A stretch of DNA of 64,000 bases from the NCBI RefSeq assembly GCF_029318685.1, contig NZ_CP119677.1:930001-994000 (forward strand). The letters are read 5' to 3'. Numbering within the stretch: the stretch's first letter is position 1; each line of letters opens with the position of its first letter. A model generated the notes under the pieces. It saw nothing but the letters and a program-made list of their open reading frames with translations, searched no databases and was not told the origin of the DNA. Below are positions 5,501 through 42,275 of the stretch, piece after piece. The translations under genes were made by a program, and so were the position numbers. This DNA comes from Ruminiclostridium papyrosolvens DSM 2782 (GTDB lineage Bacteria; Bacillota; Clostridia; Acetivibrionales; DSM-1351).

Positions 5501-7675
5501 GGCACCCTAAAAATACCTGCCGGACAAAAAAGCGGAATAATCAATGTAGATGTGTTAGGAGACAAAGTGTATGAAGATGACGAAACCTTTAAAATAATTC
5601 TTTCTAATTCACAAGGTGCAGATATAGACGCTTCAAAAGGAACTGCAATATGCACAATTAAGGACAACGATCCCATACCTGCCTTGAAATTTGAAGGTGA
5701 GGTACCTGTAGAGGTATCTGTAAAAGAAGGAGATTCAGGAACTACACAGCAGGAGTTGAAAGTAGAGCTTGATGCGGCGCGCGAAAAAGAAGTTGTTATT
5801 GATTACGTAACAGAAGACGGAACAGCAACAACTGCTGATAACGACTACATTCCGTTGTCCGATAAGTTGAAATTTGCTCCGGGTGAAACAACCAAGAAAA
5901 TAACAGTAAGTGTCGTAGGAGATAAAACAGGAGAGCCTGACGAAAGCTTCTATGTCACTTTGAAAACCAAAACCGGAGATATTAAAGCTGAGGTAATTAT
6001 TAAAGACGACGATAAGGCTTCTATTAAGATGGTGGAAAATGAAGGCAATACTGAGATTGCAAACGGTGGTACTGTTAAATTTAAAGATACAAAGGCAGGG
6101 GAGAAAAACGAGTTGGCGTTCACAATTTCAAATACCGGTAACAGTGAACTTGACTTGGAAAAACCTTATATAACCATAAACGGTGATAAATCGGATTTTT
6201 CGGTTAAATCAGAGCCGGTTAGTCCTATTGACGGAAAAGATTCAACCACCTTCAGCATACAATTTAACCCGTCTTCTTCTGGAACAAAAACAGCTGAAAT
6301 AACCATAGCGGGCAAAGATGCAGAAAACAGTCCGTTTACGTTTAAGGTTTCAGGAACTGTACCAAGTAGCCAGACAGACAGCCCTTCCGGCGGAGGTACA
6401 ACACCTGAACCCAAAAAAGAAACAATAGACATAAATGTAGGAGATCAATCTCTTAAAAATATAGCTGTTGATGTAAAAAATGAAAACAATACTAAAACTA
6501 CCACGGTAAATCTGGATGAAACAGAAGTACAAAAAACCCTTAATGAAATGGAAAAAACTAAGCCTGACAAGGAAAAGAAGGTAGTAATTCCTGTTACTAA
6601 TAATTCAGATAAAGTAGTGGGAGAGTTAAAGGCCAGTACATTAAAGGCTATGGCAGATATGGACACCATACTTGAGGTTAAAACGGAAACTGCATCCTAT
6701 ACCTTGCCTGCCAACGATATCAATATAGATGAAGTCGTGAAAAAATTGGGCGGCAACCCCGAACTTAAAGACATTTTGGTTAAGGTCACAGTTACTAAAG
6801 CTACTGGAGATAAATCGGATAAAATAAATGCTGCGGCAGCTCAAAAAGGCTTTGAAGTTAAGGGCAAACCTGTTGAGTTTGAAATATCATTTACAAATGC
6901 AGGCAGAGAAGTTACAGTTTCTTCTTTTAACAAGTACGTTGCAAGGACTGTAGCAATACCTGCGGGAATGGACCCAAATAAAATAACAACAGGTGTTGTG
7001 TATAATACTGACGGTTCCTTCTCTCATGTACCAACAGCTGTTACTGTAATCGACAAAACTTACTACGCACAGATAAACAGTCTTACTAACAGCACATATG
7101 CACTCATATATAATCCGCTGACGTTCAAGGATGTTGAAAAACACTGGTCAAAGGATTACGTAAATGATGCAGGTTCAAGACTTATAGTCAGCGGGACAGG
7201 AAATGGAAACTTTACTCCTGACAAAGCAGTTACAAGGGCTGAATTTGCAGTAATGATAGTAAAGGCATTGGGGCTGAAGGGTTCCCAGTTTGCTGATAAC
7301 TTCTCTGATGTGGGCAAGGATAATCCATATTACTCATATATCTATACTGCATACAAATATGGAATTATTACAGGCTATACTAACGGTAAATTCGGGCCAA
7401 ATGATTTGATTACAAGAGAACAGTCTATGACAATGATTTCAAAAGCCATGAAAATTGCCGGAATTAATACTCAACTTATAGATACTGATAATCTTAACAA
7501 ATACTTTGCTGATTCCGGAAATATCTCAAAATGGGCAAGAGAGGGAGCGGCTATCAGTGTAAACGGTGGATTGTTTGTAGGAAACAAGGGAATGCTTAAT
7601 CCAAAAAATAATGTTACAAGAGCTGAAAGTGCTACAGTAATTATAAAGCTTCTCAAGAATGCACATTTAATATAG
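2576..7675 (+). CDS. Giant S-layer-anchored Calx-beta repeat surface protein (1699 aa)
   Basis: Residues 1-30 form a signal peptide, probably cut after VVYA. From about 220 to 1140 there are roughly eight Calx-beta-type modules of about 110 residues, recognisable by (V/I)xEGD, VDYxTxDGTA, DYT and CTIKDND motifs. A choice-of-anchor/ASH-like module follows near 1150-1260 (FTISNTGNSELDL), then a Pro/Gly linker and a Lys-rich region. Three S-layer homology modules close the protein from about 1517 (FKDVEKHW, VTRAEFAVMIVKALGL; FSDV, ITREQSMTMISKAM; VTRAESATVIIKLL). The GGAGG site before ATG 2576 is clear. The SLH modules should bind pyruvylated cell-wall polymer, and Calx-beta modules usually bind calcium. 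The ligand or partner is unknown; adhesin or surface-layer spacer is the likeliest role. Confidence 0.9.
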   Translation: MKRVSRSLLLVFCIALIFIFVSSQVGVVYAVAPQDQNFDTDNVSGDIEGTLRIGDLTFESKNTVVSVVGCDGVSAGYPANKLENIFEKKAIINDYYGDLVAKEFKITSNQGTFKLNSFFVLTHDLEETLGTATAKVIDIKGYRGSDVIATATGIDLTIDGEKTYDGGVTYTRKCTFTNGTFGNEYGGILQFSDDWYNIDTVVISTSDTNKPLRIALDSLDFSNLTDLSIDNTTANEGEDAVFKVNLTKPYTQDITVNYSIIVGDSATANADTATADDLGTTVLNDKITISAGKPYVDIKVPIKTDTDFEKDEVFKVTISNPSVGGIIKGEATCTINANGTPPKVKLSIDKSSISEKDGSAKITATLSNKTYENVTVNLGFSGAEPGTDFNAPASITIPAGKTSDSVDITPVYDDIFSGESKNVTVDISGVTGDINGADGGDKDDSFIPPKLTITDNETEPKVNLRITPGSISESGTNTATVTAKLTNKSSKDVTVKLSYANAVKDKDFTVSNDTITIQSTKTEASVEIKGIPNSKFNKDKTLNISTSDADVTNAILGTDKSVDLTITNVDPKPKVTIAPVTPEFNEKDSANQKAIFEVSLSQTSDEAVTVDYETSDGTAKSNEDYTGKSGQLTIPKGETSGRIEVDIINDTMDEYDEDFSLTLKNPIGADLGASPSATCTIQDDDAAPDLLVTNPEVEESDSSNTTKLVFEVKLSAKSGKTVTVTYSTADGTEIQDKKPATQGEDYTAITGITLNIAPGDTSPHQIEVTVLGDDLQEPDETVTLILTADNANGCTATGTIKDNDKPTISISDATVTEGAAPKIEFKVSLSKPCSEGVSVEFRTKDGTALKGQDYVQKEDSVTFDKGEYGDKIIDIDIKDDEIYEGTESEFFNVELFGLTNTSVKMDKATGKGTINDNESKPLISVENIAVEEGDSDKTTASFTVSLSTASASEVSVDYATSDVNAKAGRDYTAATGTLKIPAGQKSGIINVDVLGDKVYEDDETFKIILSNSQGADIDASKGTAICTIKDNDPIPALKFEGEVPVEVSVKEGDSGTTQQELKVELDAAREKEVVIDYVTEDGTATTADNDYIPLSDKLKFAPGETTKKITVSVVGDKTGEPDESFYVTLKTKTGDIKAEVIIKDDDKASIKMVENEGNTEIANGGTVKFKDTKAGEKNELAFTISNTGNSELDLEKPYITINGDKSDFSVKSEPVSPIDGKDSTTFSIQFNPSSSGTKTAEITIAGKDAENSPFTFKVSGTVPSSQTDSPSGGGTTPEPKKETIDINVGDQSLKNIAVDVKNENNTKTTTVNLDETEVQKTLNEMEKTKPDKEKKVVIPVTNNSDKVVGELKASTLKAMADMDTILEVKTETASYTLPANDINIDEVVKKLGGNPELKDILVKVTVTKATGDKSDKINAAAAQKGFEVKGKPVEFEISFTNAGREVTVSSFNKYVARTVAIPAGMDPNKITTGVVYNTDGSFSHVPTAVTVIDKTYYAQINSLTNSTYALIYNPLTFKDVEKHWSKDYVNDAGSRLIVSGTGNGNFTPDKAVTRAEFAVMIVKALGLKGSQFADNFSDVGKDNPYYSYIYTAYKYGIITGYTNGKFGPNDLITREQSMTMISKAMKIAGINTQLIDTDNLNKYFADSGNISKWAREGAAISVNGGLFVGNKGMLNPKNNVTRAESATVIIKLLKNAHLI

Positions 7676-7763: not shown

Positions 7764-10451
7764 TTAAGAATTTACAGTCACAGGTTGACTCAAAAATGAT
7801 ATTCTGTTTCCTGCTTCATCTATCTGTGCAACATAGAAATTATAACTGCCGATTAATGTATACACTGTTGCAGTTGTACTTGTGGTTTCTATACATTTTT
7901 CCGGTAATTCGGTTGAGTCGGCAGCCACTTTATATATTGCATACCTTGCACCCGAGGTACCCTCCCAGGAGAAGTTTATCTGTAAGCCTGAGCGGTTTGT
8001 AATATGAAAGTTTGACGGAGCAGGGTATTCAGTATTAACAAGAACAGAATTGCTAAGGAAAGATGATATTTCTCCATTCTCGTCAATCTGTGCTACATAA
8101 TAATTGTAGTTTCCGTATATTGTACTCAAGGATACTGTTGTGCTTGTGGTTTCAGCGCATTTTTCAAGGGGAGCAGTTGAACCTTGGGCTTGTCTGTATA
8201 TGGCGTATTTTGTACCGGAGGTACCAGTCCAACCGAAGCCTATAATAAGACCAGAGCGGTTTGTAATATGAAAGTTTTGAGGAGCAGGATATTGAGTACT
8301 TACAGTAACTAATAGGCTTGAAGTAGAAACAATATTTCCATTTTCGTCAATCTGAGCTACATAATAATCATAGTTTCCGTATAAGGCAGTTACTGATACT
8401 GTGGTATTTGTGGTCTCGGCACATTTTTCAAAGAGAGTTTCTGAACCTTGCAGCTTTCTGAATACACCATATCTTGTACCAATAGTACCCTCCCAACCAA
8501 AGCCTACCTCCAGACCTGTTCTGTTTGTAATATGGAAATTTTGGGGAGCGGCGAAGGGAAGTGTATAAGTAAGAGGACTGCTAAATTCTGAAACTCTGTT
8601 TCCGTTTGCATCTATTGCTGCAATAAAATAATCATAACTTCCCGGTATTGCCTGAACGGACTCTTTGGTGTTAGTAGTTTCAAGAATTTTTACAGGTTCG
8701 GCTGTAGAGTTTTTTTCTCTTCTATATATTCCGTAATGTGAACCTGATAGAGGAAGCCATGTTAATGACAATGATGGCCCTGATGCATAAACTATTCTCA
8801 AGTCAAGACCAACAGCACCTAAAGCCTTCCTTACAGAATTAACTTCAGCACTGTCCGCTCCATATAATGCTTCTGAGGACTCAACAAGGGCTGCCGCAAA
8901 TTGAGAGAATTTCATGTCATAAACCATATTTCCGTCATTAATGGCATGATAGAATATTTCTGCAAGTTTTTCCATTCCAATTGGATTTACGGTAACATTT
9001 TTAAAAGTTCCGCCCATTGCCATAAGACTTGCGGCTTTTGTAATAACACCACCGCCTTCGTGTGGTTTGGGATATTTGAGAGAACGGTCATTTTCACATT
9101 CTAAAATGCGTCTGTTATATTCATTATAAGTATCAATTACGGGATTAGCACAATCCCTGAGAATAGTTCCGGTATCTTCTGCTATTGTCCAATCAGGTGT
9201 TCCTTCACTTGGAAGAAAGTATTCACATATTGTACCAAACACGTCAGATATACCCTCGTGTAAGGACAAGCGCTCTGTTAAAGGAGGATTAAATTCGAAG
9301 TGACCGTCACTGGAATCTCCTAAGCCTTCCGATTTAAGTATTCCATGAGTAAATTCATGTGCCATGGCATCTACCGCGAAGGCAACGGATTTACCTGCCA
9401 AACCTTTACCTGCACCGATTCTTACCTCATTTGTGTCTGCAAAGGCATTAAAGACGTTACCGCTGTCTTTTATAATTTCAATGGTATACTCTGAGCCGTT
9501 GTCATCGTTTCCATTACGGTAAAAAGGAGCACCTTTAAAGAAATTAATAACATTTGTCATATTATAATGAGCATCTACGGCATCTTTTTGAAAGTTTAAT
9601 CCGGTGTCCGTGTCAAAATTATTATCATTTTCACTATATATTCCGTCTAATTCGTGGATAGTTTTTAGATTTTCAACGGTGTTTTTAAGATAGTATACAT
9701 CATTATCCTTTACCATTTTTAATGGCTGCTTTACCGCTCCGGATTGCCCTATACCGGAACCTACTGCCGGCTCTTCAAGACTTAATTCCTGATTGTTTTT
9801 TCCAAATACCGACAGATTACTTGCATAAAGATAATATATATAACTCTTAAATGCAGGATTTTTGAATTTGATACTTACTTTGTATATGTAGTTATATTTT
9901 CCATAAACAGGATATAGAAGCAACTGGCTTTTAGGGCTCTCAGTGTATACCGGCTTAAATCCCAAATCTCTCTCGATTGCAGAGAGGATTGAGTCTTGGG
10001 ACATTTCAGCGGGTTTAACAGCTAAGGAAACTCTATCTGCTATATCATATACATAGCTTCCAACAATATATACAATAACACCGTCAGAATTGATAAAATA
10101 GTTTCTGTCACTGTTTTGAACAGGTACGCCGTTATAGGTTTGAACTGTTTTTACTACCGTTCTGTTAAGGGAATTTACAAACTGCTCAGTAACCTTAAAC
10201 TGTATTGCCGGCAATTGATATTTTTGAGCTTCTTGAAGAATATATTGCTCAACTATTTGCTTTGGCGTTTTGTCAGACGCTGCCGTTAGGTTTCCTGATA
10301 TAAACGAAGGAATAACTTCTTGAGCTTGAATTGCTTCGGATTTTACATTATTGCCGGTGTTTTCAGTATTAGCATAAACCCATGGAAAACTACTGGTAAC
10401 AAGTGAAACAGATAGCAAAACAGCACTTAAAATTTTTTTTGCTGATTTCAT
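7764..10451 (-). CDS. Secreted thermolysin-family (M4) neutral metalloprotease with C-terminal FN3-like repeats
   Basis: An 895-residue precursor with signal peptide at 1-27 (cleavage near VYA-NTE), an FTP/PepSY-type propeptide up to about 240 and an M4 catalytic domain. Zinc ligands are visible as HEFTH (His365, Glu366, His369) and Glu399 in HEGISD. His464 in PHEGGG corresponds to the thermolysin transition-state histidine. After about 550 come one divergent and three close repeats of about 87 residues (NFHITNR, YAIYR, YYVAQIDENG), FN3-like and probably for substrate or wall binding. The ATG has an AAGGAG site. It should be an extracellular endopeptidase activated by propeptide removal. The family's own tail domains differ, so the repeats are a lineage feature. 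Confidence 0.93.
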   Translation of the reverse strand: MKSAKKILSAVLLSVSLVTSSFPWVYANTENTGNNVKSEAIQAQEVIPSFISGNLTAASDKTPKQIVEQYILQEAQKYQLPAIQFKVTEQFVNSLNRTVVKTVQTYNGVPVQNSDRNYFINSDGVIVYIVGSYVYDIADRVSLAVKPAEMSQDSILSAIERDLGFKPVYTESPKSQLLLYPVYGKYNYIYKVSIKFKNPAFKSYIYYLYASNLSVFGKNNQELSLEEPAVGSGIGQSGAVKQPLKMVKDNDVYYLKNTVENLKTIHELDGIYSENDNNFDTDTGLNFQKDAVDAHYNMTNVINFFKGAPFYRNGNDDNGSEYTIEIIKDSGNVFNAFADTNEVRIGAGKGLAGKSVAFAVDAMAHEFTHGILKSEGLGDSSDGHFEFNPPLTERLSLHEGISDVFGTICEYFLPSEGTPDWTIAEDTGTILRDCANPVIDTYNEYNRRILECENDRSLKYPKPHEGGGVITKAASLMAMGGTFKNVTVNPIGMEKLAEIFYHAINDGNMVYDMKFSQFAAALVESSEALYGADSAEVNSVRKALGAVGLDLRIVYASGPSLSLTWLPLSGSHYGIYRREKNSTAEPVKILETTNTKESVQAIPGSYDYFIAAIDANGNRVSEFSSPLTYTLPFAAPQNFHITNRTGLEVGFGWEGTIGTRYGVFRKLQGSETLFEKCAETTNTTVSVTALYGNYDYYVAQIDENGNIVSTSSLLVTVSTQYPAPQNFHITNRSGLIIGFGWTGTSGTKYAIYRQAQGSTAPLEKCAETTSTTVSLSTIYGNYNYYVAQIDENGEISSFLSNSVLVNTEYPAPSNFHITNRSGLQINFSWEGTSGARYAIYKVAADSTELPEKCIETTSTTATVYTLIGSYNFYVAQIDEAGNRISFLSQPVTVNS
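7767..8546 (-). repeat. Three tandem FN3-like protein repeats in the M4 protease tail
   Basis: Three units of about 87 codons (protein residues about 636-721, 724-810, 812-895) share NFHITNR(S/T)GL, a Y-(A/G)-(I/V)-(Y/F) core and YVAQIDE. They are also recognisable as DNA repeats. A fourth, more divergent copy (about 556-634) precedes them. They look like intragenic duplications. Confidence 0.85.
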
Positions 10452-31697: not shown

Positions 31698-32475
31698 TAT
31701 ATTAGAAACTGCAATAAACGATGCAGTAGAAATGGTTCGGGAAGCAGGAGAACTTTTGCTGCAAAGTATGGATGACAAGAAAGTCATCACAAAGAATGGT
31801 ACTGCTAATTTTGTAACAGAAATAGATTTGAAGGTTCAGGAGATATTATTCGGTAAGTTAATTAATTTACTTCCTGATAGTAATATAATTGCTGAGGAAA
31901 CGGCAGATAATAATTTTGCCTTGGGAAAATATACATGGATACTTGACCCTGTTGACGGAACTACTAACCTGATGTACGGGTACAAATGTTCTGCCATAGC
32001 CCTTGGATTGGTGGTAGAGGGTGTTCCTTATGCAGGAATAGTATACAATCCCTTTTTAAACGAAATGTATACTGCAAAAAAGGGTCAGGGAGCATTCATA
32101 AATGGTAATCCAATCGGGGTAACTTCAAACGAGAGTTTATCTAGCAGCCTTTTGGCTTTCGGTACTTCACCCTACGACAGAGGGAAGGCCGATGAGACCT
32201 TCAGAATAACCAAGAATGTCTTTGGAAAATGCAGAGATATAAGAAGAAGCGGTTCAGCTGCTCTTGACATATGTAATGTAGCTGCCGGACGAACTGACGG
32301 GTATTTTGAAATGGAATTACAGCCTTGGGATTATGCAGGAGCATCCATAATTCTGAAAGAGGCAGGCGGCAGAATAACCGATTGGCAAGGCAAGGATTTA
32401 ACCTACATTTTAAAAAGCCCCGCAATTGCTACAAATGGGCTTATACATGAGGAATTAATAGAAGCAATGAAATAG
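31690..32475 (+). CDS. Inositol monophosphatase-family protein
   Basis: A 261-residue Mg2+-dependent phosphatase. Metal-binding motifs are the Glu in AEET (about 68-71), WILDPVDGTTN at about 83-93 and WDYAGA at about 213-218. Family members hydrolyse inositol-1-phosphate, fructose-1,6-bisphosphate or 3'-phosphoadenosine 5'-phosphate. Translation starts at GTG inside the end of the acyl-CoA synthetase gene, so the two are coupled, but that does not fix the substrate. Confidence 0.88.
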   Translation: MSNILETAINDAVEMVREAGELLLQSMDDKKVITKNGTANFVTEIDLKVQEILFGKLINLLPDSNIIAEETADNNFALGKYTWILDPVDGTTNLMYGYKCSAIALGLVVEGVPYAGIVYNPFLNEMYTAKKGQGAFINGNPIGVTSNESLSSSLLAFGTSPYDRGKADETFRITKNVFGKCRDIRRSGSAALDICNVAAGRTDGYFEMELQPWDYAGASIILKEAGGRITDWQGKDLTYILKSPAIATNGLIHEELIEAMK

Positions 32476-32518
32476 ATAACAAAAACATAAAACTTAAGGG
32501 ATTAGTAAGAGTCGAAAA

Positions 32519-32578
32519 AGGATAATAACCACAAAATTTGTATTATATGGATTTTGTAGGTGTTGTCCTTTTTTTACT
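32519..32578 (+). terminator. Long terminator hairpin
   Basis: Nineteen-base arms (32519-32537 and 32551-32569) pair with two mismatches and two G-U, followed by TTTTTTT. It ends the operon that finishes with the inositol phosphatase-family gene. Confidence 0.8.
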
Positions 32579-32734
32579 AAAAAAAGAATTTTAAATGCAT
32601 TTCATACCAAAAAAGCAGCATTTCAGGAAGCAAAGGGATTTTAAAATGACTTTTTAAGATATACTTACAGGCATACTTATTAAATAAATACAATAGGTAT
32701 TTCTTTAAAAATAACATTCGGAGGAAACAAAAAA

Positions 32735-33229
32735 ATGAAAAAGATTATGGCAAGTATATCAGCACTACTTATTTGCATTACAGTATTAGCAGGTTGTGGA
32801 GCAGATCCGGTACAAGATGACCTGATTAATTACATTAACAATCAATTGCCAACTATTGCGACATTAGAAAAGAAAGTAACCAGTGAATATCAAGCTGTTA
32901 AGTCAGACAGTAAAGCAGACGACGCAACGTTTGGGGCTAAACTAAAGGATGTGATAATTCCTGCAGCTGCCGAATTAATCGCAAAAGCAAAAGCAACCGT
33001 TCCGGCAACAGAAGAAGTGAAAAAAGTACACGATAAGTATATTGCATCAGTGACAGCACAATCGGAAGCTTTTGCAATACTGCTTGATGCGGCTGGAAAG
33101 AATGATGCAGAACTAGCAAAAACTGCAAATGATAAACTAACAAAGGCTGAAAAGCTGTCCAAAGAATATTTAGCAGACTTAGAAACTTTGAAAAAGGATC
33201 ATAATGTAGAGAATAAAGAGAGCAAGTAG
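32735..33229 (+). CDS. Small helical lipoprotein of unknown function
   Basis: A 164-residue protein with a lipoprotein signal (lipobox VLAGC, Cys21) and a mature part that is almost wholly Ala/Lys/Glu-rich amphipathic helix, probably a helical bundle or coiled coil. A GGAGG site precedes the ATG. I recognise no named family beyond generic lipoproteins. The clostripain-like protease gene follows 50 bases later, so co-expression is plausible. Confidence 0.8.
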   Translation: MKKIMASISALLICITVLAGCGADPVQDDLINYINNQLPTIATLEKKVTSEYQAVKSDSKADDATFGAKLKDVIIPAAAELIAKAKATVPATEEVKKVHDKYIASVTAQSEAFAILLDAAGKNDAELAKTANDKLTKAEKLSKEYLADLETLKKDHNVENKESK

Positions 33230-33279
33230 CATTGATATACCATGCACATATTTCCAATTATACTGAGGGGGAATTAACT

Positions 33280-35187
33280 ATGCGTAAGTTTATGAGTGCA
33301 GCTTTGGTTCTGGCTATATGTGTCTTTACAGTACTATTTAGTGGTTCCAACGTTGAGGCGGCAGTAAAGGTTGCACCCTACACCGTTTTAGTGTATATGG
33401 TTGGGTCTGACCTTGAGAGCAATGGTGGGGCTGCAACAGATGATTTAATTGAAATGGCAGCAGTTGGCTCAACAAAGAATGTAAACATTTTGGTTGAAAC
33501 CGGAGGAACGAAAAAGTGGAATTTGCCTATGATAAGTAACAAGGTAAACCAGCGCTGGTTGGTTCAGAAGGAAAATATCAAACTATTAAAAAATGATTTA
33601 GGAAACCGTAGCATGGGTAAACAGAGCACTCTTCAGGACTTCCTTGTATGGGGAATAAAGAATTATCCTGCAAAGAAATATGCCGTAGTATTTTGGGATC
33701 ATGGTGCTGGTGCTAAAGGCTTCGGATATGATGAAAACAATAGCGGTAATGATCCAACTCTGTCTATAAAAGAAATAAATGGTGCTTTAAAGGCTGCAAC
33801 AGCTGCCAGTAAACAAAAATTTGAACTGGTTGGATTTGATGCTTGTTTGATGGGAAACATTGAGACGGCTACAGGAATAATGGATTATGCTTCATATATG
33901 GTAGCTTCCGAGGAGCTTGAGCCGGGCCATGGTTGGGAATATACTTCGGCTTTGCAGGCCTTGAACAAGAAACCTACAGCAACAGGTGCTGAATTCGGAA
34001 AGGCAATAGCTGACGGCTATAAAAAGCAAGCAACTTCACAGGGCACTGTAAACCAAATTACACTATCGGTAGTTAACCTTGCAAAAGTTAGTGCAGTTAA
34101 CACTGCATTTGAGAATTTTATAAAGAAAGCCAGCAATGATATTAAGGATCCTCAAAGGATTACTGCAGTGTCAAAAGCAAGAGTTAAAGCCGAGGACTAT
34201 GGAGATGCGGGCGCTCATGGTGGTACTACCGACATGGCTGATATCTATGACATAGCATATAATCTAAAGAGTATTTATCAGACTGAAGCAAATCAGTTAA
34301 TGAAAAGTATAAAGGCATGTATTACATACAAGGTTACCAGTGATACTAAGCCAAATGCAAATGGGTTATCCGTATATTTCCCATGCAAGGACAAGGAAAG
34401 CTTTAAGGATAACTTAAAGGAATATCAAAATACAGGCTATTCCAAAAACTATCAGAAGTTTCTTGCCACATATGTGGATGGGATTTTAAAAGACACAACC
34501 CCGATTCAGTTAATACAGGCTGACCCCAAAGCAGGCGGTGGAGATTCGAATAGCCTGTTTTCAGTACAGATAGCCCCGGAAGATATTGCGGATATAAATG
34601 AGCTTTATTCAGTACTGGCAATGCCCTGTGACGAAGAAGGCAATACAATAATGTATCTGGGTATGAATAAGGATGTCGAGCTGGATCCTATTACCGGTAT
34701 AGTAAAGGAAAATTTTACAGGTACCTGGACTACTCTTGGAGGGCAAATTGTGTCAATGTATATTGACGAAATAATTGATGATAATTATGTAACCTATTCC
34801 ATTCCTGCCAAGCTTAACGGAGAATCTGTAGATATAAAGGTTTTATATAGTGAAGAATATCCTGAGGGAATAGTATTGGGTGCATGGAAAGGCATTGACG
34901 AGAAGACCGGTATGCCTGACAAGGATATCATTAAGATATGCACCGGGGATGAGATTATTCCGCAATACTATTATTATGGAGTAACAGATGATTTAGGTGG
35001 CTACGTTAACGGCTATGTTGACGGAGAAGCTATTAAGGTAGGAGATGAACTCAAGCTGGAGGTAGTTGAATTGCCAGAAGCAGATTACCTGTACGGATTC
35101 TATATGACAGATACTGCACAAAACTCAAGTACCTCTGAATTTGTAACCTTTAACATTAAGGACGGCTATATTACTGTCAAGAATTAA
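33280..35187 (+). CDS. Secreted clostripain-family (C11) cysteine protease
   Basis: A 635-residue precursor with a signal peptide (1-27, NVEA). The catalytic dyad is His141 (FWDHGAG) and Cys189 (FDACLMGN), with VLVYMVGSDLES at the domain start as in family C11. Beyond about 410 lies a beta-rich extension of unknown role, so it is longer than minimal C11 enzymes. Family members cleave after Arg or Lys and are often Ca2+-activated. A GAGGGGG site fits the ATG at 33280, whereas the upstream in-frame ATG at 33232 has none and would break the signal peptide. A strong terminator follows. Confidence 0.9.
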   Translation: MRKFMSAALVLAICVFTVLFSGSNVEAAVKVAPYTVLVYMVGSDLESNGGAATDDLIEMAAVGSTKNVNILVETGGTKKWNLPMISNKVNQRWLVQKENIKLLKNDLGNRSMGKQSTLQDFLVWGIKNYPAKKYAVVFWDHGAGAKGFGYDENNSGNDPTLSIKEINGALKAATAASKQKFELVGFDACLMGNIETATGIMDYASYMVASEELEPGHGWEYTSALQALNKKPTATGAEFGKAIADGYKKQATSQGTVNQITLSVVNLAKVSAVNTAFENFIKKASNDIKDPQRITAVSKARVKAEDYGDAGAHGGTTDMADIYDIAYNLKSIYQTEANQLMKSIKACITYKVTSDTKPNANGLSVYFPCKDKESFKDNLKEYQNTGYSKNYQKFLATYVDGILKDTTPIQLIQADPKAGGGDSNSLFSVQIAPEDIADINELYSVLAMPCDEEGNTIMYLGMNKDVELDPITGIVKENFTGTWTTLGGQIVSMYIDEIIDDNYVTYSIPAKLNGESVDIKVLYSEEYPEGIVLGAWKGIDEKTGMPDKDIIKICTGDEIIPQYYYYGVTDDLGGYVNGYVDGEAIKVGDELKLEVVELPEADYLYGFYMTDTAQNSSTSEFVTFNIKDGYITVKN

Positions 35188-35207
35188 ACATGAATAAGTG
35201 TCAGAAT

Positions 35208-35258
35208 AAAAAACCCCCTTAGGTGATACCGAGAATAGTATCACCTAAGGGGGTTTTT
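35208..35258. terminator. Strong rho-independent terminator
   Basis: A perfect 21-bp stem (35209-35229 with 35238-35258), 8-base loop and a terminal T-run. It ends the clostripain transcript just left of the direct-repeat cassette. Confidence 0.93.
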
Positions 35259-35311
35259 AACAGTAACTCATTCAAATATTGTGAAGTTACAATTTAAGAA
35301 GAAAAACTATT

Positions 35312-35368
35312 GAGTAAAATATTTACAAATGATTTATGGTATTTTTCAGTTAGGATTGGTATCATATT
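35312..35368. repeat. 57-bp direct repeat, left copy
   Basis: It matches 40310-40366 at 56 of 57 positions (the single difference is A at 35319 versus T at 40317). The two copies are in the same orientation, 4998 bases apart. Weak similarity continues about 15 bases to the left, where the left copy would encode RRKTIE-stop against RRKNTE-stop at the end of the orphan gene at the right copy. Confidence 0.95.
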
Positions 35369-35561
35369 GTCTTTTATTGTTGGGTTAGCATAAAAGATCC
35401 TTTATTCGTATTTATACCAAAAGTTGACATATAATAAAAATAATGCTAAATTATAGCAGTGGAATTCTGAGGATTATATCTCATATTCTATTTATACACA
35501 TGTGTATTAGGCACATATGACATTCTGGTTTAATACTAAAATATTGAGGGGGACTTTAAAA
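35369..35561. other. Intergenic leader of the cassette (no gene seen)
   Basis: Together with the terminator and repeat to its left this is a gene-free stretch of 374 bases (35188-35561). Apart from the candidate promoter at 35424-35452 and a short ACACATGTGT palindrome near 35495, I see no structured element. Confidence 0.6.
35424..35452 (+). promoter_or_regulatory. Candidate sigma-A promoter of the cassette
   Basis: Perfect TTGACA at 35424-35429, 17-base spacer, TAAATT at 35447-35452, about 110 bases upstream of the secreted-protein gene. Confidence 0.55.
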
Positions 35562-35933
35562 GTGAAAAAAACAAGACTGACTATTTTATTAGCTATAGCC
35601 TTAGTTATAGCTTCAAGCATTTCTACTTTTGCGTGTACATATAGTGTATCAGTATATCATGATAATACAGCAACAAGCTATTATTACAAAGATGGTACAA
35701 TTTCTACTACATTTAGTTGGGACAATTCAAACTATCATCCAAATCTTTATTATCAGGAAAGTCGTTACGGGTATACACATAGTGGAACACTAACAAGTTA
35801 CGCAACTAGTACTGGGAACACACAAACATTTGTGTCTAGTGATCCAAGTACAGATTGGTATCAATATACTACAAAAACCTACACTACACTTTATGAAGGA
35901 GATATTACTAATTCTCAGTGCGGTTGGATATAA
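35562..35933 (+). CDS. Small secreted Tyr/Thr/Ser-rich protein, unknown
   Basis: A 123-residue precursor from a GTG at 35562 with a GAGGGGG site. The frame opens at 35517, but that extension would precede the signal peptide. Residues 1-24 form a signal peptide ending STFA, leaving a mature protein of about 99 residues that starts at or near Cys and has its only other Cys four residues before the C-terminus. The mature part is rich in Tyr, Thr and Ser in alternating beta-like patterns. I do not recognise a family. It heads the repeat-bounded cassette. Confidence 0.7.
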   Translation: MKKTRLTILLAIALVIASSISTFACTYSVSVYHDNTATSYYYKDGTISTTFSWDNSNYHPNLYYQESRYGYTHSGTLTSYATSTGNTQTFVSSDPSTDWYQYTTKTYTTLYEGDITNSQCGWI

Positions 35934-36043
35934 AAGTGACATTATTAATTCTGTTCACATTATAGAAAGATAACGAAACACAATTACAATGTTGGTATAC
36001 CTAATGCGCATGTGTAGACTATTCCTAGAGGAGTGTTAAAAAA

Positions 36044-38221
36044 ATGAAAAAACATATATTCATCATTCTTTTTGCCATGGTTCTGTTTCTCATCAGTGGA
36101 TGTAATGGGACTTCAAAGGAAACATTACCGAATTCTCAATCTAATAACTCTATAAAGAAATTTACCGAAATCCAGCTGAAAAACAAAATCCCAGAGGGCT
36201 ATGCAATTACAAAAGTTCTTAAAGAAACCCCTGACGGCTTATATGTACTGTGCTTAAATTTTAGTAAACCGGATGAGCAACATACTCATAAAGATGAAAC
36301 GCAACATAAGGATGAAGTTTATAATCAGAACAGGATATTTTTTATAAATCAAGATATAAATAAGAGCATATGGACTGGAAATTGTGAAGCAGCAGCTATG
36401 GATTCCAATAATCAGCTTTACATATTAAGTGAGGTAGGAAATGGGTCTTCTAAAAAATTTGTTTTAAATAAATACGATGATAAGCTTAACTTATCCGGTA
36501 AGTGGACACTGAAGTCACCTCCCAAAGAACATTCTATACTTGTTAACGATATTATTTTATATAATGACCGAATTGCCGTTATTAGGACAGGTGGAGTGCA
36601 AATTTTTGATTTATACGGGAAGGTTCTTTGGGAAAAGAGTTATAAAAGTATAAATAACTATGCTTCGGATAATCAAAATCTTTACCTGACTGAGTTTCCC
36701 GTTTATGGAGGGGACACTAACAGGCTTTTTAAGCTTAACGTTTTTGGATTTAGGGAGGAATGGTCAGCTAATATCCAGTTAATTCAGGACCAAATCAAAA
36801 ACCTGTCATATAATAAATATGACTCAAAACTGTATCTCATTTTAAACAATCGCTTGATGAGCTGTGATAAAGGCAAACTATCGGAGGTTTGTAATTTTTT
36901 AGATTTCAAGAGCGGAAAGCTTGTATCAAATGCTGCCGTTTCAAATGATGAAGCTCGTTTTACAAACTATCTGCAATTGATGTTTAATAATAATAGTTTC
37001 ACACTTCTTTTATATGCTATAGAAAACAATCCAATGTTTTCATATTCACCTTCTAATCAAGCTGTAAAATCACCAAGTACTTCTGTAAATTTGCTTCTGC
37101 CTACACATAATAATACACTTGAGATGACAGCGGCTAGGTTTGAAGAAAAAAATCCTGATACCAAAATTAACTTTACCTATTATAAAGAGACTGGTGATGT
37201 CAGCCAACCGGATTTTATACAATTTATGAATCTGAAGGTCTTATCAGGAGAACAAAACTGGGATATAGTTCCCATCATTTATTTACCTTACTGGCAATAT
37301 ATTCAAAAGGGTATTCTGGCAGACTTGGATTCGCTTGATAAGAAACACGATCTTAGTAACTCGGCTGTTTATTATACAAATCTGATTGATGGGTGTAGAA
37401 TAGATAAAAAACTTTATTATTTACCGATATGTATAACATTTCCGACATTTATAATAGACATAATGAATAAAGAAGCAGACAGCTTTATTCGGGACTCAAA
37501 AACTTGGACATGGACTGAATTGGAAAAAAATATAGCTTCTTGGAAGAAAGAAAGCAAACCATTTAAAAAAAATCCTTTGGCTGGTGCTTCAGTAATTTCA
37601 GTAATGATTTATCAACCATACATATCCGGATTTTTCACTGGGGAAAAAAAGGAGCAAGATGTGAAGCTGTTTGAGGAATGTATGACACTCTTATCCAGTT
37701 TTGAAAAAAAGGGTTTGTATGCCGATAAAGATCAGGTTGGAGTTTTAATGCCTTCGATGGATACTAATTGGTCAATATTTAGCAATGGCATTATTCCACT
37801 CTCTGAGAATGATAGAGTAATTTCGGTTCCTACTCTTAATGGAAGTAACCGACGTTCATTTACTATTCAGGAGGCGTATGCCATTAATTCTCAAAGCTCT
37901 AATCCTACCTTAGCCTTTGACTTTCTGAAATTTTTAGCGAAAGATAGCTCAATGAGTCACCCGGAGGCTATTTGTAGATCAGACAGAGAGTATATCATTA
38001 ATAATTTGGCTAACCAATTGCAAGCCTCATCGGAGAAAGTCATCCCATTCGTAGATTCATTACTGGCTGCTAAATCATCTTTGAATCATGCCGATTACTT
38101 TGACCCGCAAGTAGGCAGAATAGTTTTTGAAATTGTTGACCAGTTTAGAAAGGGCTTAATTTCAAAAGAAGAAGCTGCCAGAGACATTTCAAAAAGGGTT
38201 TGGCTCTACGCAAATGAATAA
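36044..38221 (+). CDS. Lipoprotein: propeller-like N-terminal part joined to an ABC solute-binding domain
   Basis: A 725-residue lipoprotein (lipobox LISGC, Cys20). Residues about 40-340 show repeated short beta-strand units (LYVLC, LYILSEVG, IAVIRTGGVQIFDLYGKVLWEK, LYLTEF, LYLILNNRL) that look like a beta-propeller. Residues from about 350 look like a family 1 extracellular solute-binding protein (SVNLLLPTHNNTLEMTAARF, WDIVPI, GILADLDSL, YYLPI, AFDFLKFLA), the standard core being about 370 residues. A GAGGAG site precedes the ATG. Two permease genes follow, so it is the receptor of an ABC importer. No ATPase gene is present. The ligand is unknown. Confidence 0.8.
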   Translation: MKKHIFIILFAMVLFLISGCNGTSKETLPNSQSNNSIKKFTEIQLKNKIPEGYAITKVLKETPDGLYVLCLNFSKPDEQHTHKDETQHKDEVYNQNRIFFINQDINKSIWTGNCEAAAMDSNNQLYILSEVGNGSSKKFVLNKYDDKLNLSGKWTLKSPPKEHSILVNDIILYNDRIAVIRTGGVQIFDLYGKVLWEKSYKSINNYASDNQNLYLTEFPVYGGDTNRLFKLNVFGFREEWSANIQLIQDQIKNLSYNKYDSKLYLILNNRLMSCDKGKLSEVCNFLDFKSGKLVSNAAVSNDEARFTNYLQLMFNNNSFTLLLYAIENNPMFSYSPSNQAVKSPSTSVNLLLPTHNNTLEMTAARFEEKNPDTKINFTYYKETGDVSQPDFIQFMNLKVLSGEQNWDIVPIIYLPYWQYIQKGILADLDSLDKKHDLSNSAVYYTNLIDGCRIDKKLYYLPICITFPTFIIDIMNKEADSFIRDSKTWTWTELEKNIASWKKESKPFKKNPLAGASVISVMIYQPYISGFFTGEKKEQDVKLFEECMTLLSSFEKKGLYADKDQVGVLMPSMDTNWSIFSNGIIPLSENDRVISVPTLNGSNRRSFTIQEAYAINSQSSNPTLAFDFLKFLAKDSSMSHPEAICRSDREYIINNLANQLQASSEKVIPFVDSLLAAKSSLNHADYFDPQVGRIVFEIVDQFRKGLISKEEAARDISKRVWLYANE

Positions 38222-38263
38222 CGATGTCTGCTGCATGTTCAAAAAACTATGGGAGGAAAACTT

Positions 38264-39112
38264 ATGATTCATAGCCGCAAGTGGTTGGTTTTACTTCTCC
38301 TACCAGGATTGACAGGGTTTATCTTTTTTTGGGTATACCCTGTTTTGTCAGGAGTTTATATAAGTATGACTAATTATTTAGATGGGGGAAAGTTTGTTTT
38401 TCTCCATAACTATATACAGCTATTTCAAAACAAAGTATTTTTAAAAGCACTCCTGAACACTTTTTGTATTACTACTGTGGGAGTTTCTTTGATAATGGTA
38501 ATTTCATTTATAATTGCATATTATATTTGGAAAACGTTAACCGTGCACCGATTACTAAAGGTTGTACTTTTACCGCTTGCGGTTGCTACAGTAGCAATTT
38601 CATTTGTATGGGAAACACTATTCAATTCAAACGGTGATATTAATAAACTTTTTACTGAAATCCTTGGGTTGTCATCAATAAATTGGCAATCGGGTGCTTT
38701 GTCGTATATTCCGATATTACTTCTGTACATATGGAGATATATTGGGATTGACATAATTGTATTTGTTGCAGCTCTCAACACAATTTCTACAGAAATAATA
38801 CAGGCTTTTTTACTGGACAGTAAAAGCAAATTGAAACAAATGTACTATGTATTTATACCCGGTATCGTCCCTCAAACAATTTTTGTTTTTTTTATATCCC
38901 TCATGTATTGTTTGTGGCTATCCCAAGATATTTTTACGCTATGGAAGGACTATCCGCCTGAACAGCTATATTTGCTGCAACACTTTATTACAAACAGTTT
39001 TCGAAAACTAAATTATGAAAATGCTGCCGCAGCTTCCACGGTGCTTATTATTATTATAGGTGTTATATTAGTATTTTTGAGGAAGCTGGAGAGGAGGTAT
39101 GATATTCAGTGA
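38264..39112 (+). CDS. ABC sugar transporter permease, MalF-type
   Basis: A 282-residue membrane protein with six helices, beginning with a typical LLLPGLTGFIFFWVYPVLSG. The cytoplasmic coupling loop (about 187-205) is a degenerate EAA motif, with QAFLLDSKSKL in place of EAAxxDGA. A GGGAGG site fits the ATG at 38264 better than the in-frame ATG at 38249. It overlaps the next permease gene by four bases. With the fused lipoprotein it forms a type I importer lacking its own ATPase, so a shared MsmK-like ATPase is expected. Confidence 0.85.
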   Translation: MIHSRKWLVLLLLPGLTGFIFFWVYPVLSGVYISMTNYLDGGKFVFLHNYIQLFQNKVFLKALLNTFCITTVGVSLIMVISFIIAYYIWKTLTVHRLLKVVLLPLAVATVAISFVWETLFNSNGDINKLFTEILGLSSINWQSGALSYIPILLLYIWRYIGIDIIVFVAALNTISTEIIQAFLLDSKSKLKQMYYVFIPGIVPQTIFVFFISLMYCLWLSQDIFTLWKDYPPEQLYLLQHFITNSFRKLNYENAAAASTVLIIIIGVILVFLRKLERRYDIQ

Positions 39113-39951
39113 AGAAGATTTATAAACGTATTCCGACTTATACATTATGTATTATATTATGTTTAATAATAATGTATCCTATAGTTTTCATTGTGTCATG
39201 TTCCTTTTTTGGTAGCCGAGAACTAGCTGATAATTTTATAAATTTATTCTATTTGATTCGAAAAGATTTTTCACTCTCTGGATATCAAATAATATTATAT
39301 AGCTTTCGCTTTCAATCCGGATTGATATTCTCATTAATATACGCTATATGCATAACATTCTTGCAATATGTATTTGGAATTTCAAGTGGTTTTGTTCTAG
39401 CAAAATTCCGGTTTAAGTTTAATGAAGCACTTTATTTTGCATATCTTTTGTGCATGATTATGCCATTTAGCGTAATTGTTTTGCCTCAATATATGCTTTT
39501 TAAAAGTATAGGGATATACGATAGCGTGTTTGCAATCATCTTGCCGGGCGGCTTTGGGGCTATGGGAGTTTTTTTCTATCGACAATTTATAAAGCAAATT
39601 CCAAACAATATACTTGAGGCGGCGCAGGTTGACGGGGCTTCTCCATTTGTACTTCTTAAAAAGATACTGGCTCCAATGTTAAAAGATTGCACATTCGCCT
39701 ATATGGTTATTTGTTTCTGTACAAATTGGAATTCAATAGACCCTTCAATTGCATTTATTCGTTCAGTTAGTATTCAACCTCTTTCTGTGGCTCTTAAAGA
39801 AGCTTTTAATAATGCCCCGGAAGTATTTTTCGCTCCGGCAGTATTGTATATGGTACCTCCTATTTTAGTTTATTTTTTCTTTTCAGAGGAGCTTATTAGA
39901 GGGTTATCATTTAATAAATCTTCAACGAAAGGACCTTCGCATGAAATATAA
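39109..39951 (+). CDS. ABC sugar transporter permease, MalG-type
   Basis: A 280-residue permease with six helices, starting at a GTG within the end of the previous gene. The coupling motif EAAQVDGASPFVLLKKILAPML is intact at about 175-196. MalG-type partners pair with MalF-type permeases in carbohydrate importers. It overlaps the orphan gene downstream by 11 bases, so the four genes from 36044 read as one operon. Confidence 0.86.
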   Translation: MKKIYKRIPTYTLCIILCLIIMYPIVFIVSCSFFGSRELADNFINLFYLIRKDFSLSGYQIILYSFRFQSGLIFSLIYAICITFLQYVFGISSGFVLAKFRFKFNEALYFAYLLCMIMPFSVIVLPQYMLFKSIGIYDSVFAIILPGGFGAMGVFFYRQFIKQIPNNILEAAQVDGASPFVLLKKILAPMLKDCTFAYMVICFCTNWNSIDPSIAFIRSVSIQPLSVALKEAFNNAPEVFFAPAVLYMVPPILVYFFFSEELIRGLSFNKSSTKGPSHEI

Positions 39952-40315
39952 AAAAGTAATTTTTCTTACAATATCAGCACTGCTTGTATTAACCATTTTA
40001 ATTATGCCAACAGTAATATGGCAATTTATGCCGAACGTAGAAACCCATACTGTTATTTCTTTGACAAAAGAAGGGTCTTTATTACCAATATCGGTAGTCA
40101 AATTGAAAGATAATCCCTGTGTTTATCAGTTGGTTTCCAATAAAAGCTTTTGGTATAATGGGTTTGTTGCTAAATGTATTCCGGTTAAAGTAATAAAAAG
40201 CGATGAGGATTCAGTAATGGTTGCTAATATATTTCATCCTTCAGAAGAATTGATTGTATTGGATAGGCATAATTTGCACGATGGTATTCATGTTAGAAGG
40301 AAAAACACCGAGTAA
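39941..40315 (+). CDS. Membrane-anchored orphan protein (124 aa)
   Basis: A 124-residue protein with one N-terminal hydrophobic helix (about 5-28) and an external domain of about 95 residues containing two Cys. No known family is apparent. An AAAGGA site lies seven bases before the ATG, inside the end of the permease gene, implying translational coupling. Its last sense codon and stop lie within the right copy of the 57-bp direct repeat, which is important for how the cassette formed. Confidence 0.7.
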   Translation: MKYKKVIFLTISALLVLTILIMPTVIWQFMPNVETHTVISLTKEGSLLPISVVKLKDNPCVYQLVSNKSFWYNGFVAKCIPVKVIKSDEDSVMVANIFHPSEELIVLDRHNLHDGIHVRRKNTE

Positions 40316-40366
40316 ATTATTTACAAATGATTTATGGTATTTTTCAGTTAGGATTGGTATCATATT
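40310..40366. repeat. 57-bp direct repeat, right copy
   Basis: Second copy of the repeat at 35312-35368 (56 of 57 identical). It starts in the final codon of the orphan gene and ends 43 bases before the MutS-family start codon. Confidence 0.95.
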
Positions 40367-40409
40367 CAGTAAAGGCTATTTTATTAACCGCAGACAATGG
40401 AGGCTGAAG

Positions 40410-42275
40410 ATGAGAACACCGGAAGAAAAGTACAAAAAAAGAGTAGATGTTTATAAAAGAAAGCTTGAATTATACACCGGAAAAAGCAGTACTACAGGTA
40501 ATTACAAGCTGTTAGTATTTTTTACGGGTTTGATTGGGGCGGCTGTTTTATTTTTCTTTAAATTATATATACTAATGGCTGCAGTAATACTGCTTTTTGG
40601 GGGATTGTTCGCTTATCTTTCCATTATTCACAACACATATATAAAAAATAAGAACTACTATCACGCAATGTTTCAGATAAATCAAATGTGCCTTAAAAGA
40701 GCTTTAGGTGAATGGAATGAATTCTCAGACATAGGGGAAGAATTCTTGAATCCGCAACACAACTACACATATGACCTTGATATATTTGGGAAAGGTTCCA
40801 TTTTTCAGATGCTTAATATGACAGCAACATATTCAGGTAGACATAAACTTGCAGAATTGCTTTTAAATCCTATGGAGAATAAAGAAGAAATATATAAAAG
40901 GCAGGAAGCATTACAGGAGTTATCCAAAAAGCTTATATTCAGACACAGGCTATTTTCAAACGGCTTAACCCTTAACAAGAACACAATACTAACTGACAAT
41001 AACGAGAGTGATAAAAAAAGAAAGAAAACTCTTCTGGATACTATGAACAAGTTGGATGATGTATACACATGGGCAAAGGAAGAAAAAAGCCTGTACACAT
41101 CGCCTAAATATAAGCTGTTGATATTCGGACTTCCTAGTCTGTCATTCTGTATGCTGATACTGGGAATAATAAGTCTTGTACCAGTTTATGTACCCATAGC
41201 CCTTTATCTGGTACAGTTCATAATGATTGGTTTCAGGGCTCAAAACAGAAACAAGAGTTTTGAGTTAGTAGAAAAGCACTCAGACACCCTGAAAGTATAT
41301 AAAAGCTTATTAAGAATATTTGAAACGGAGAAATTCTCAAGCAATTATATAAATAGCTTAAAGAATAAGTTAAAGGATGATTACGGAAATCCTGCTTGGA
41401 AGCAAATTGAAAAATTATCAAAGATATGGGAGCTTATTGCAAACAGGTACAACCTGATGCATATCTTTATAAATACAGCCGTGTTATGGGATTTCCATTG
41501 CCTTGCAGCACTTGAAAACTGGAAAAAAAGCGGAGGCAAACATGTTGAGAGGTGGTTTGACACAATAGGAGAGGTTGAAGCCTTATGCAGTCTGTCCCTG
41601 ATGTGCCACGATAATCCCGAATACATAATGCCACGTATTTGTGAAGAAAATACTCCTCAAATAGAAGCATTGAGATTAGGACACCCGTTACTGACAAAAG
41701 CCAGAGAATGCAATGATATAACAATAAATTCAAAAGAGCCGATACTGCTTATAACTGGTTCTAATATGTCAGGTAAAAGTACATTTTTAAGGACTGTAGG
41801 AATGAGTCTTATATTATCGTATCTTGGACTGCCAATCTGTGCGGAAGCTTTTAGCTGCCCTGTACTGAAGGTATATGCATGTATGAGAACCAGTGATAAT
41901 TTAGGACAAAGTGTATCCTCCTTTTATGCCGAGCTGCTGAGAGTTAAAATGATTGTAGAGGCAGTAGATAGGGGAGAAAAAGTATTCTTCCTTCTGGATG
42001 AAATCTTTAAGGGAACAAATTCGGCAGACAGACACACAGGTGCTAAAATGCTGATAAACCAGTTAGATAAAAAAGGTGCATGGGGACTTGTTTCTACCCA
42101 CGACTTAGAACTTGCAGATATGGAAAATGAGAGTCAGGGCCGCATCAGGAATTACCATTTCAAGGAGTATTACAAAGATAATCAGATATACTTCGATTAT
42201 CAGCTGAGAAAAGGTGTATCAGATACAAGAAACGCTATTTTTCTAATGAAAATGGCAGGAGTTAATATAGAATAA
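40410..42275 (+). CDS. MutS-family ATPase with transmembrane segments
   Basis: A 621-residue protein. There is a hydrophobic hairpin at about 33-71 and a second one near 232-270, then a MutS lever/clamp-like helical region and a MutS-type ATPase domain: Walker A GSNMSGKST at about 449-457, then the MRTSDNLGQSVSSFYAEL signature, Walker B FFLLDEIFKGTNS at about 527 and STHDLELA. It lacks the mismatch-recognition domain of MutS and the Smr nuclease of MutS2. A GGAGG site fits the ATG at 40410; the in-frame extension to 40254 overlaps the upstream gene. It is likely a membrane-bound MutS-like ATPase of unknown job. Confidence 0.85.
   Translation: MRTPEEKYKKRVDVYKRKLELYTGKSSTTGNYKLLVFFTGLIGAAVLFFFKLYILMAAVILLFGGLFAYLSIIHNTYIKNKNYYHAMFQINQMCLKRALGEWNEFSDIGEEFLNPQHNYTYDLDIFGKGSIFQMLNMTATYSGRHKLAELLLNPMENKEEIYKRQEALQELSKKLIFRHRLFSNGLTLNKNTILTDNNESDKKRKKTLLDTMNKLDDVYTWAKEEKSLYTSPKYKLLIFGLPSLSFCMLILGIISLVPVYVPIALYLVQFIMIGFRAQNRNKSFELVEKHSDTLKVYKSLLRIFETEKFSSNYINSLKNKLKDDYGNPAWKQIEKLSKIWELIANRYNLMHIFINTAVLWDFHCLAALENWKKSGGKHVERWFDTIGEVEALCSLSLMCHDNPEYIMPRICEENTPQIEALRLGHPLLTKARECNDITINSKEPILLITGSNMSGKSTFLRTVGMSLILSYLGLPICAEAFSCPVLKVYACMRTSDNLGQSVSSFYAELLRVKMIVEAVDRGEKVFFLLDEIFKGTNSADRHTGAKMLINQLDKKGAWGLVSTHDLELADMENESQGRIRNYHFKEYYKDNQIYFDYQLRKGVSDTRNAIFLMKMAGVNIE

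Follow-up and report, generated by a model that had tools for sequence, protein, structure and literature searches.

The DNA analysed here, referred to below as the window, is a stretch of 64,000 nucleotides from Ruminiclostridium papyrosolvens DSM 2782 (genome G000; positions 930,001-994,000 of its single contig), which belongs to a genus of cellulose degraders. Within it a cassette of five genes lies between two almost identical copies of a 57-bp sequence, with a clostripain-family protease gene to its left and the gene for a MutS-like ATPase to its right. The features of the region, in window coordinates, are as follows.

33232-35187, + strand: clostripain-family protease, the left neighbour; present in the same interval in genome G006, 94% identical
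35209-35258, no strand assigned (listed for the - strand): 21-bp perfect inverted repeat, terminator-like, between the clostripain gene and the left 57-bp copy
35312-35368, + strand: left 57-bp copy, a duplicate of the MutS-like gene leader; the first cassette gene begins 194 bp downstream
35424-35452, + strand: possible promoter of the cassette's own (TTGACA-17-TAAATT, with TG)
35562-35933, + strand: small secreted protein of 123 aa with two cysteines, predicted to be beta-rich, without a family
36044-38221, + strand: lipoprotein with a solute-binding domain of sugar type at residues 358-634
38264-39112, + strand: ABC importer permease 1, similar to UgpA/GlcT below the curated cut-offs, without a Pfam match
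39109-39951, + strand: ABC importer permease 2, BPD_transp_1, similar to UgpE with NCBIfam matches below cut-off
39941-40315, + strand: orphan protein of 124 aa, membrane-anchored by reading of the sequence
40310-40366, + strand: right 57-bp copy, the native leader of the MutS-like gene; homologous DNA lies directly upstream of this gene in relatives
40410-42275, + strand: MutS-like ATPase gene, matched by the MutS1 and MutS2 models only below their cut-offs

The first-pass annotation had listed the insert as a secreted small protein, a lipoprotein, two permeases and an orphan membrane protein, and this gene list is correct. The cassette encodes an ABC importer of sugar type without an ATPase gene, together with a small secreted and a small membrane protein. 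Such importers usually share a general ATPase encoded elsewhere in the genome. The signals of the secreted protein and of the lipoprotein are assignments made by reading. The reading frame of the secreted protein opens at 35517, and the start at 35562 is more likely; that of permease 1 can begin at 38249, and its start was picked to fit genome G003, which carries a related cassette. The secreted protein is 67% identical in G003, with both cysteines kept, and none of Pfam, NCBIfam and PHROGs gives it a significant family. Its predicted structure (pLDDT 71.7) is beta-rich, and a comparison with PDB folds yielded no relative, the best match having an E value of 0.12. Pfam matches at E 0.24 (0.075 for the G003 protein) and a match in genome G164 (35%, query residues 33-123, in a frame of 1357 aa) were put down to chance or to a beta pattern in common. 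The N-terminal region of the lipoprotein, about 340 residues, is without a family, and a structure prediction for this protein (mean pLDDT 42) was left unused. Against defence models the MutS-like protein gave three weak ATPase matches and the five cassette proteins none. As to the possible cassette promoter, its TTGACATA is present in the G003 leader too, and promoter-like sites in the region are at shuffle level (25 against 25.0).

The 57-bp copies are identical at 56 positions and have the same orientation, exactly as first reported for both coordinate pairs. Their sole mismatch is at repeat position 8, with A at 35319 on the left and T at 40317 on the right. The BLAST match between them widens to 72 bp at 91.7% identity (35297-35368 and 40295-40366), the extra 15 bp being alike at 10 of 15 positions. 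No 57-mer match with three or fewer mismatches was found in 100 dinucleotide shuffles of the window. Among direct repeats of 35 bp or longer in the window (E ≤ 1e-4), the copies of this pair are the most similar to each other, the three others listed under these limits being 68-71% alike. Further copies elsewhere in the genome, for which the first-pass annotation had advised a search, did not appear: with 35280-35380 as query against the one-contig genome of 5,027,861 bp (E ≤ 0.001), only the two known places were returned, in a genome-wide repeat search that scored 40 of 47 first-look candidates. With two genomic places only, a dispersed element was ruled out. An RNA element or a tRNA target was also ruled out; no Rfam match was obtained at gathering scores, and the window is without tRNA or tmRNA.

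Of the two copies it is the right-hand one that is native, as the leader of the MutS-like gene; the left-hand one is its duplicate. A DNA search with 35200-40420 as query found leader matches directly upstream of the MutS-like gene in G002, G005, G006 and G007. Identity was 85% in G002 (over 40310-40420), 83% in G007 and 78% in G006 (both over 40316-40420), and 78% in G005 (over 40320-40420). Each of these four genomes has one leader place and no cassette, and the second DNA match in G006 is the terminator behind clostripain. In G009 a match of 39 bp lies inside the leader, at 85%. When the leaders are aligned, the right copy runs on into sequence common to the relatives (CAGTAAAGG... and variants). 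G002 has 50 of 57 bases in common with the left copy and 51 of 57 with the right copy, with which it shares the T at the differing site. An ungapped short-word BLAST of the right-copy region against G007, G006 and G005 covered chiefly the 3′ end of the 57-mer and the sequence beyond, and the 5′ part of the repeat is therefore best conserved in G002. The outside genes had been said to look unrelated; the MutS-like gene, however, is not unrelated to the repeat, the right copy being its own leader. A cassette bounded by repeats of its own is likewise not supported, since the repeat is this leader and the G003 cassette is without it.

The leader is probably the promoter of the MutS-like gene. By reading, the right copy carries an extended -10-like motif, TGGTATCAT, and the core GATTGGTATCATA can be read as a putative extended -10 promoter. 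The first bases of the right copy also provide the stop codon of the last cassette gene, and the C terminus of the orphan protein is altered at this junction (...HVRRKNTE here, ...HVRRSK in G003). The repeat copies differ from each other at 1 of 57 positions and from G002 at 6-7 of 57, so that the duplication looks younger than the species split from G002, unless conversion between the copies maintains their likeness.

The cassette body was found in two of the 11 genomes of the genus, the studied genome and G003, at 78% DNA identity, and is missing from the four closest relatives. At the MutS-like site it is absent from all ten other genus genomes; the G003 copy sits elsewhere (1075024-1079789), and the end of the MutS-like gene of that genome lies about 28 kb away. 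Two exporter-like genes (C39-type ABC and HlyD-type, by sequence reading) flank it on one side and asnB on the other. The adjoining G003 stretch (L052:1457-6518) contains, as neighbours, the C39-type exporter, the HlyD-type protein and a short ORF resembling a leader peptide; this neighbourhood is possibly a bacteriocin export locus. Self-BLAST of an 18-kb stretch with the G003 cassette lists no direct repeat (E ≤ 1e-3). BLAST homology between the two cassettes covers 35491-35806 and 35999-40299, and a weaker alignment extends left to about 35386. No cassette remnant was found within 1.5 kb beside asnB of the studied genome. More widely, a relative of the solute-binding protein occurs in 2 of 391 class genomes at E ≤ 1e-40 and in 4 of the 11 genus genomes at E ≤ 1e-15, the two extra genomes matching residues 336-635 only, at 28%, while the orphan protein occurs in 2 of 58 order genomes. 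Neither plasmids nor phages gave a blastn match to 35300-40400, and plasmids gave no tblastn match to the solute-binding protein. A scan of named genomes with this protein produced 77 pattern matches, none of which was confirmed; it missed the G003 copy too.

Synonymous divergence between G000 and G003 was compared for 36 ORFs of the window, of which 24 (4 in the cassette and 20 outside it) matched G003 stretches totalling about 72 kb and 12 were unmatched. The four cassette genes have pS values of 0.50-0.57 and the 20 other genes 0.67-0.84; the latter are close to saturation, and three of the 20 rows cover only part of a gene or probably compare paralogues (coverage 0.54 and 0.25; 25% identity). 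Further low-identity rows among the non-cassette genes may be paralogous, and two rows share one G003 target. The short secreted gene lies outside this set, and its pS, computed separately, is 0.635, near the lowest of the other genes. For two genes, pS of G000 is 0.49-0.54 against G002 and 0.28-0.39 against G007. As the cassette pS is below that of the other window genes, horizontal movement within the genus is its most likely history; the horizontal origin is well supported, and another species of the genus is the probable source. The two cassettes most likely parted after their chromosomes, though not recently, and G003 is not the direct donor. Recent gain by recombination, as suggested at the outset, stands in outline, given that the four closest relatives lack the cassette and that its pS against G003 is lower than that of other window genes.

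The best explanation, which we regard as moderately probable, is horizontal gain within the genus of a five-gene ABC-importer operon, by an insertion that duplicated the 57-bp target leader. The operon would have arrived at a variable spot upstream of the MutS-like gene, leaving 57 bp of target leader on both sides of itself; the left copy would now precede the cassette, and the right copy would still serve the MutS-like gene. With T for the leader, the map is flank-T-cassette-T-flank, and T is native to the right flank, which fits insertion with target duplication. No recombinase, transposase or integrase in the cassette matched Pfam, NCBIfam or PHROGs at the thresholds used, in agreement with what had been noticed from the sequence, and host recombination is therefore the likely agent. 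It might have acted through homology at one end and an illegitimate join at the other, or alternatively through repair of a widely staggered break. The locus is a trace of horizontal gain with duplicated target DNA and no recognisable mobile element; that insertion and duplication were one event we infer. Recombination between the copies could cleanly delete the cassette, and excision or toggling between presence and absence is possible. We give little credence to a broader proposal, that the MutS-like leader is a preferred insertion site of the genus at which enzyme-free insertion gives a reversible, promoter-preserving operon module. On this view foreign operons would gain a copy of the promoter and leave the MutS-like gene unsilenced, and the 57-bp repeats would later permit their clean loss.

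The empty site predicted for relatives is present on one side: the right flank is contiguous with one leader copy, and no cassette is there, in G002, G005, G006 and G007. The left flank (35259-35311) has no counterpart in the relatives, and none of them joins it directly to a single leader copy. It is on this side that another history deserves attention, in which the cassette was inserted with its own leader and no duplication, and 57 bp of the MutS-like leader were copied in later. The cassette leader would then reach the clostripain terminator, and the copying, by template switching or ectopic conversion, was perhaps favoured since it added a promoter. In agreement with this, 35262-35295, the 34-bp stretch to the left of the left copy, is collinear with the leader of the G003 cassette and alike at 25 of 34 positions, as expected of a homologous spacer; the left copy would then lie within the cassette leader. 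To the right of the left copy, the weak alignment with the leader of G003 extends as far as about 35386. The score was equalled in 8 of 500 shuffles, 29 of 3000 real 53-mers and 2 of 3000 real 201-mers; two earlier tests of the left flank, over a range omitting part of the 34-bp stretch, gave nothing (217 of 400 and 149 of 500). This weak signal suggests that the left copy may have been added later. The similarity is, however, short, AT-rich and chosen after the fact, and cassette homology at BLAST level starts only at 35491. Moreover, the alignment with the G003 leader scores no better once the 57-mer is removed (40.0, against 40.5 unexcised; the best excision elsewhere, at 35353, gives 48.5). 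We consider this two-step course unlikely, if the most serious of the rivals.

The same final map, leader-cassette-leader, would result from tandem duplication of cassette plus leader followed by loss of one cassette. This takes more steps, a duplication and then a deletion ending at the leader boundary, and a search with cassette DNA found no second remnant in the studied genome; we judge it improbable. Direct repeats of such length in the same orientation at a variable spot would also suit site-specific integration, with the 57-mer as attachment site, an integrase encoded elsewhere and a cassette cycling in and out. It is nevertheless very unlikely, with no recombinase family matched in the cassette, no repeat flanking the G003 cassette, no third copy of the 57-mer in the genome and no viral contig that matches 36 bases of the 57-mer exactly. 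Assembly error or chance is scarcely credible: the genome is a single contig, the copies have different flanks, the repeat is presumably shorter than the reads used, and the shuffles gave no match.

Insertion with long target duplication was reportedly described by Nobusato et al. (2000, Gene 259:99) and Furuta et al. (2010, NAR 38:2428) for restriction-modification genes, first in Helicobacter pylori. The favoured reading, insertion with duplication of the leader, resembles these cases in that relatives lack the insert at the site where one genome carries it, in its flanking direct repeats of tens of bp or more (here 57 bp, 56 identical), and in that the repeat is target DNA, single in the four relatives without the insert. 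The cargo differs, being an ABC importer here and usually restriction-modification genes there, which is not a mechanistic difference. Passages in PMC3874152, PMC3031569 and PMC1643837 report, for restriction-modification genes, target duplications on the order of 100 bp, and long target duplication is also mentioned in PMC4978471 and PMC3154945.

A candidate mechanism is homology-facilitated illegitimate recombination, with one homologous join (here perhaps at the leader) and one illegitimate; according to the sections consulted, it has been proposed for sites with alternative foreign segments (PMC2884548). The same sections report that in Escherichia coli, Staphylococcus aureus and Streptococcus pyogenes direct repeats lie at the base of 10-18% of the variable segments, that among these loci 42-66% in E. 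coli and S. pyogenes, but 16% in S. aureus, show a genome missing the segment, and that 66-94% of the repeats are shorter than 30 bp, the threshold for RecA-dependent recombination in E. coli (PMC2884548). The Ruminiclostridium repeat, at 57 bp, is in contrast above this length. An Arabidopsis study of similar repeats, as excerpted, favoured tandem-repeat histories (PMC2869330), and for this reason the tandem-duplication alternative was kept above. Genomic islands that carry an integrase also have direct repeats at both ends; here, however, no integrase was matched, the window has no tRNA gene and the G003 cassette has no flanking repeat. A DNA transposon would differ in having a transposase family, terminal inverted repeats and a short duplication; here no such family was matched, no inverted repeat spanning the cassette end to end was among the 25 longest of 39 pairs, and the duplication is 57 bp. 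A literature search on genomic islands in Ruminiclostridium returned nothing relevant.

If the favoured reading holds, the locus is a case of long target duplication with an ordinary transporter operon as cargo; the bacterial cases in the literature as far as consulted are restriction-modification genes, in a search that was not exhaustive for other cargo. It would also show how insertion of an operon into a leader can spare the gene that follows, and would mark a gene-turnover spot in Ruminiclostridium with both junctions still readable. The cassette does not reveal a new mobile element.

In every one of the 11 genus genomes one contig carries an inositol-monophosphatase gene followed by the MutS-like gene, and the interval between the two genes ranges from 345 bp (G008) to about 14.8 kb (G004). 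In the window this interval (32475-40410) is a gene-turnover spot whose content differs among the 11 genomes. Self-BLAST of the ten other intervals listed no direct repeat in the 150 bp before the MutS-like gene, the stretch used for G004 leaving out about 4 kb of its interval. The interval holds a lipoprotein, the clostripain and the transporter cassette in G000, ankyrin repeats in G004, a TraB-family protein in G001, a GH10 enzyme with dockerin in G009, and little in G002, G003 and G008. In G007 (L043:4214-9695) the order is a short Cys/Tyr-rich ORF, a radical-SAM gene, a response-regulator-like ORF and a histidine kinase, which can be read as a candidate ribosomal-peptide cluster; G006 has similar ORFs there. 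In G005 the interval contains an ORF of 1341 aa and, by reading of the sequence, transposase-like fragments. A 116-bp direct repeat (95%) is also present in G005, its copies lying about 1.8 kb apart (5991-6106 and 7797-7912 of the reverse complement of L045), the first of them inside the 1341-aa ORF.
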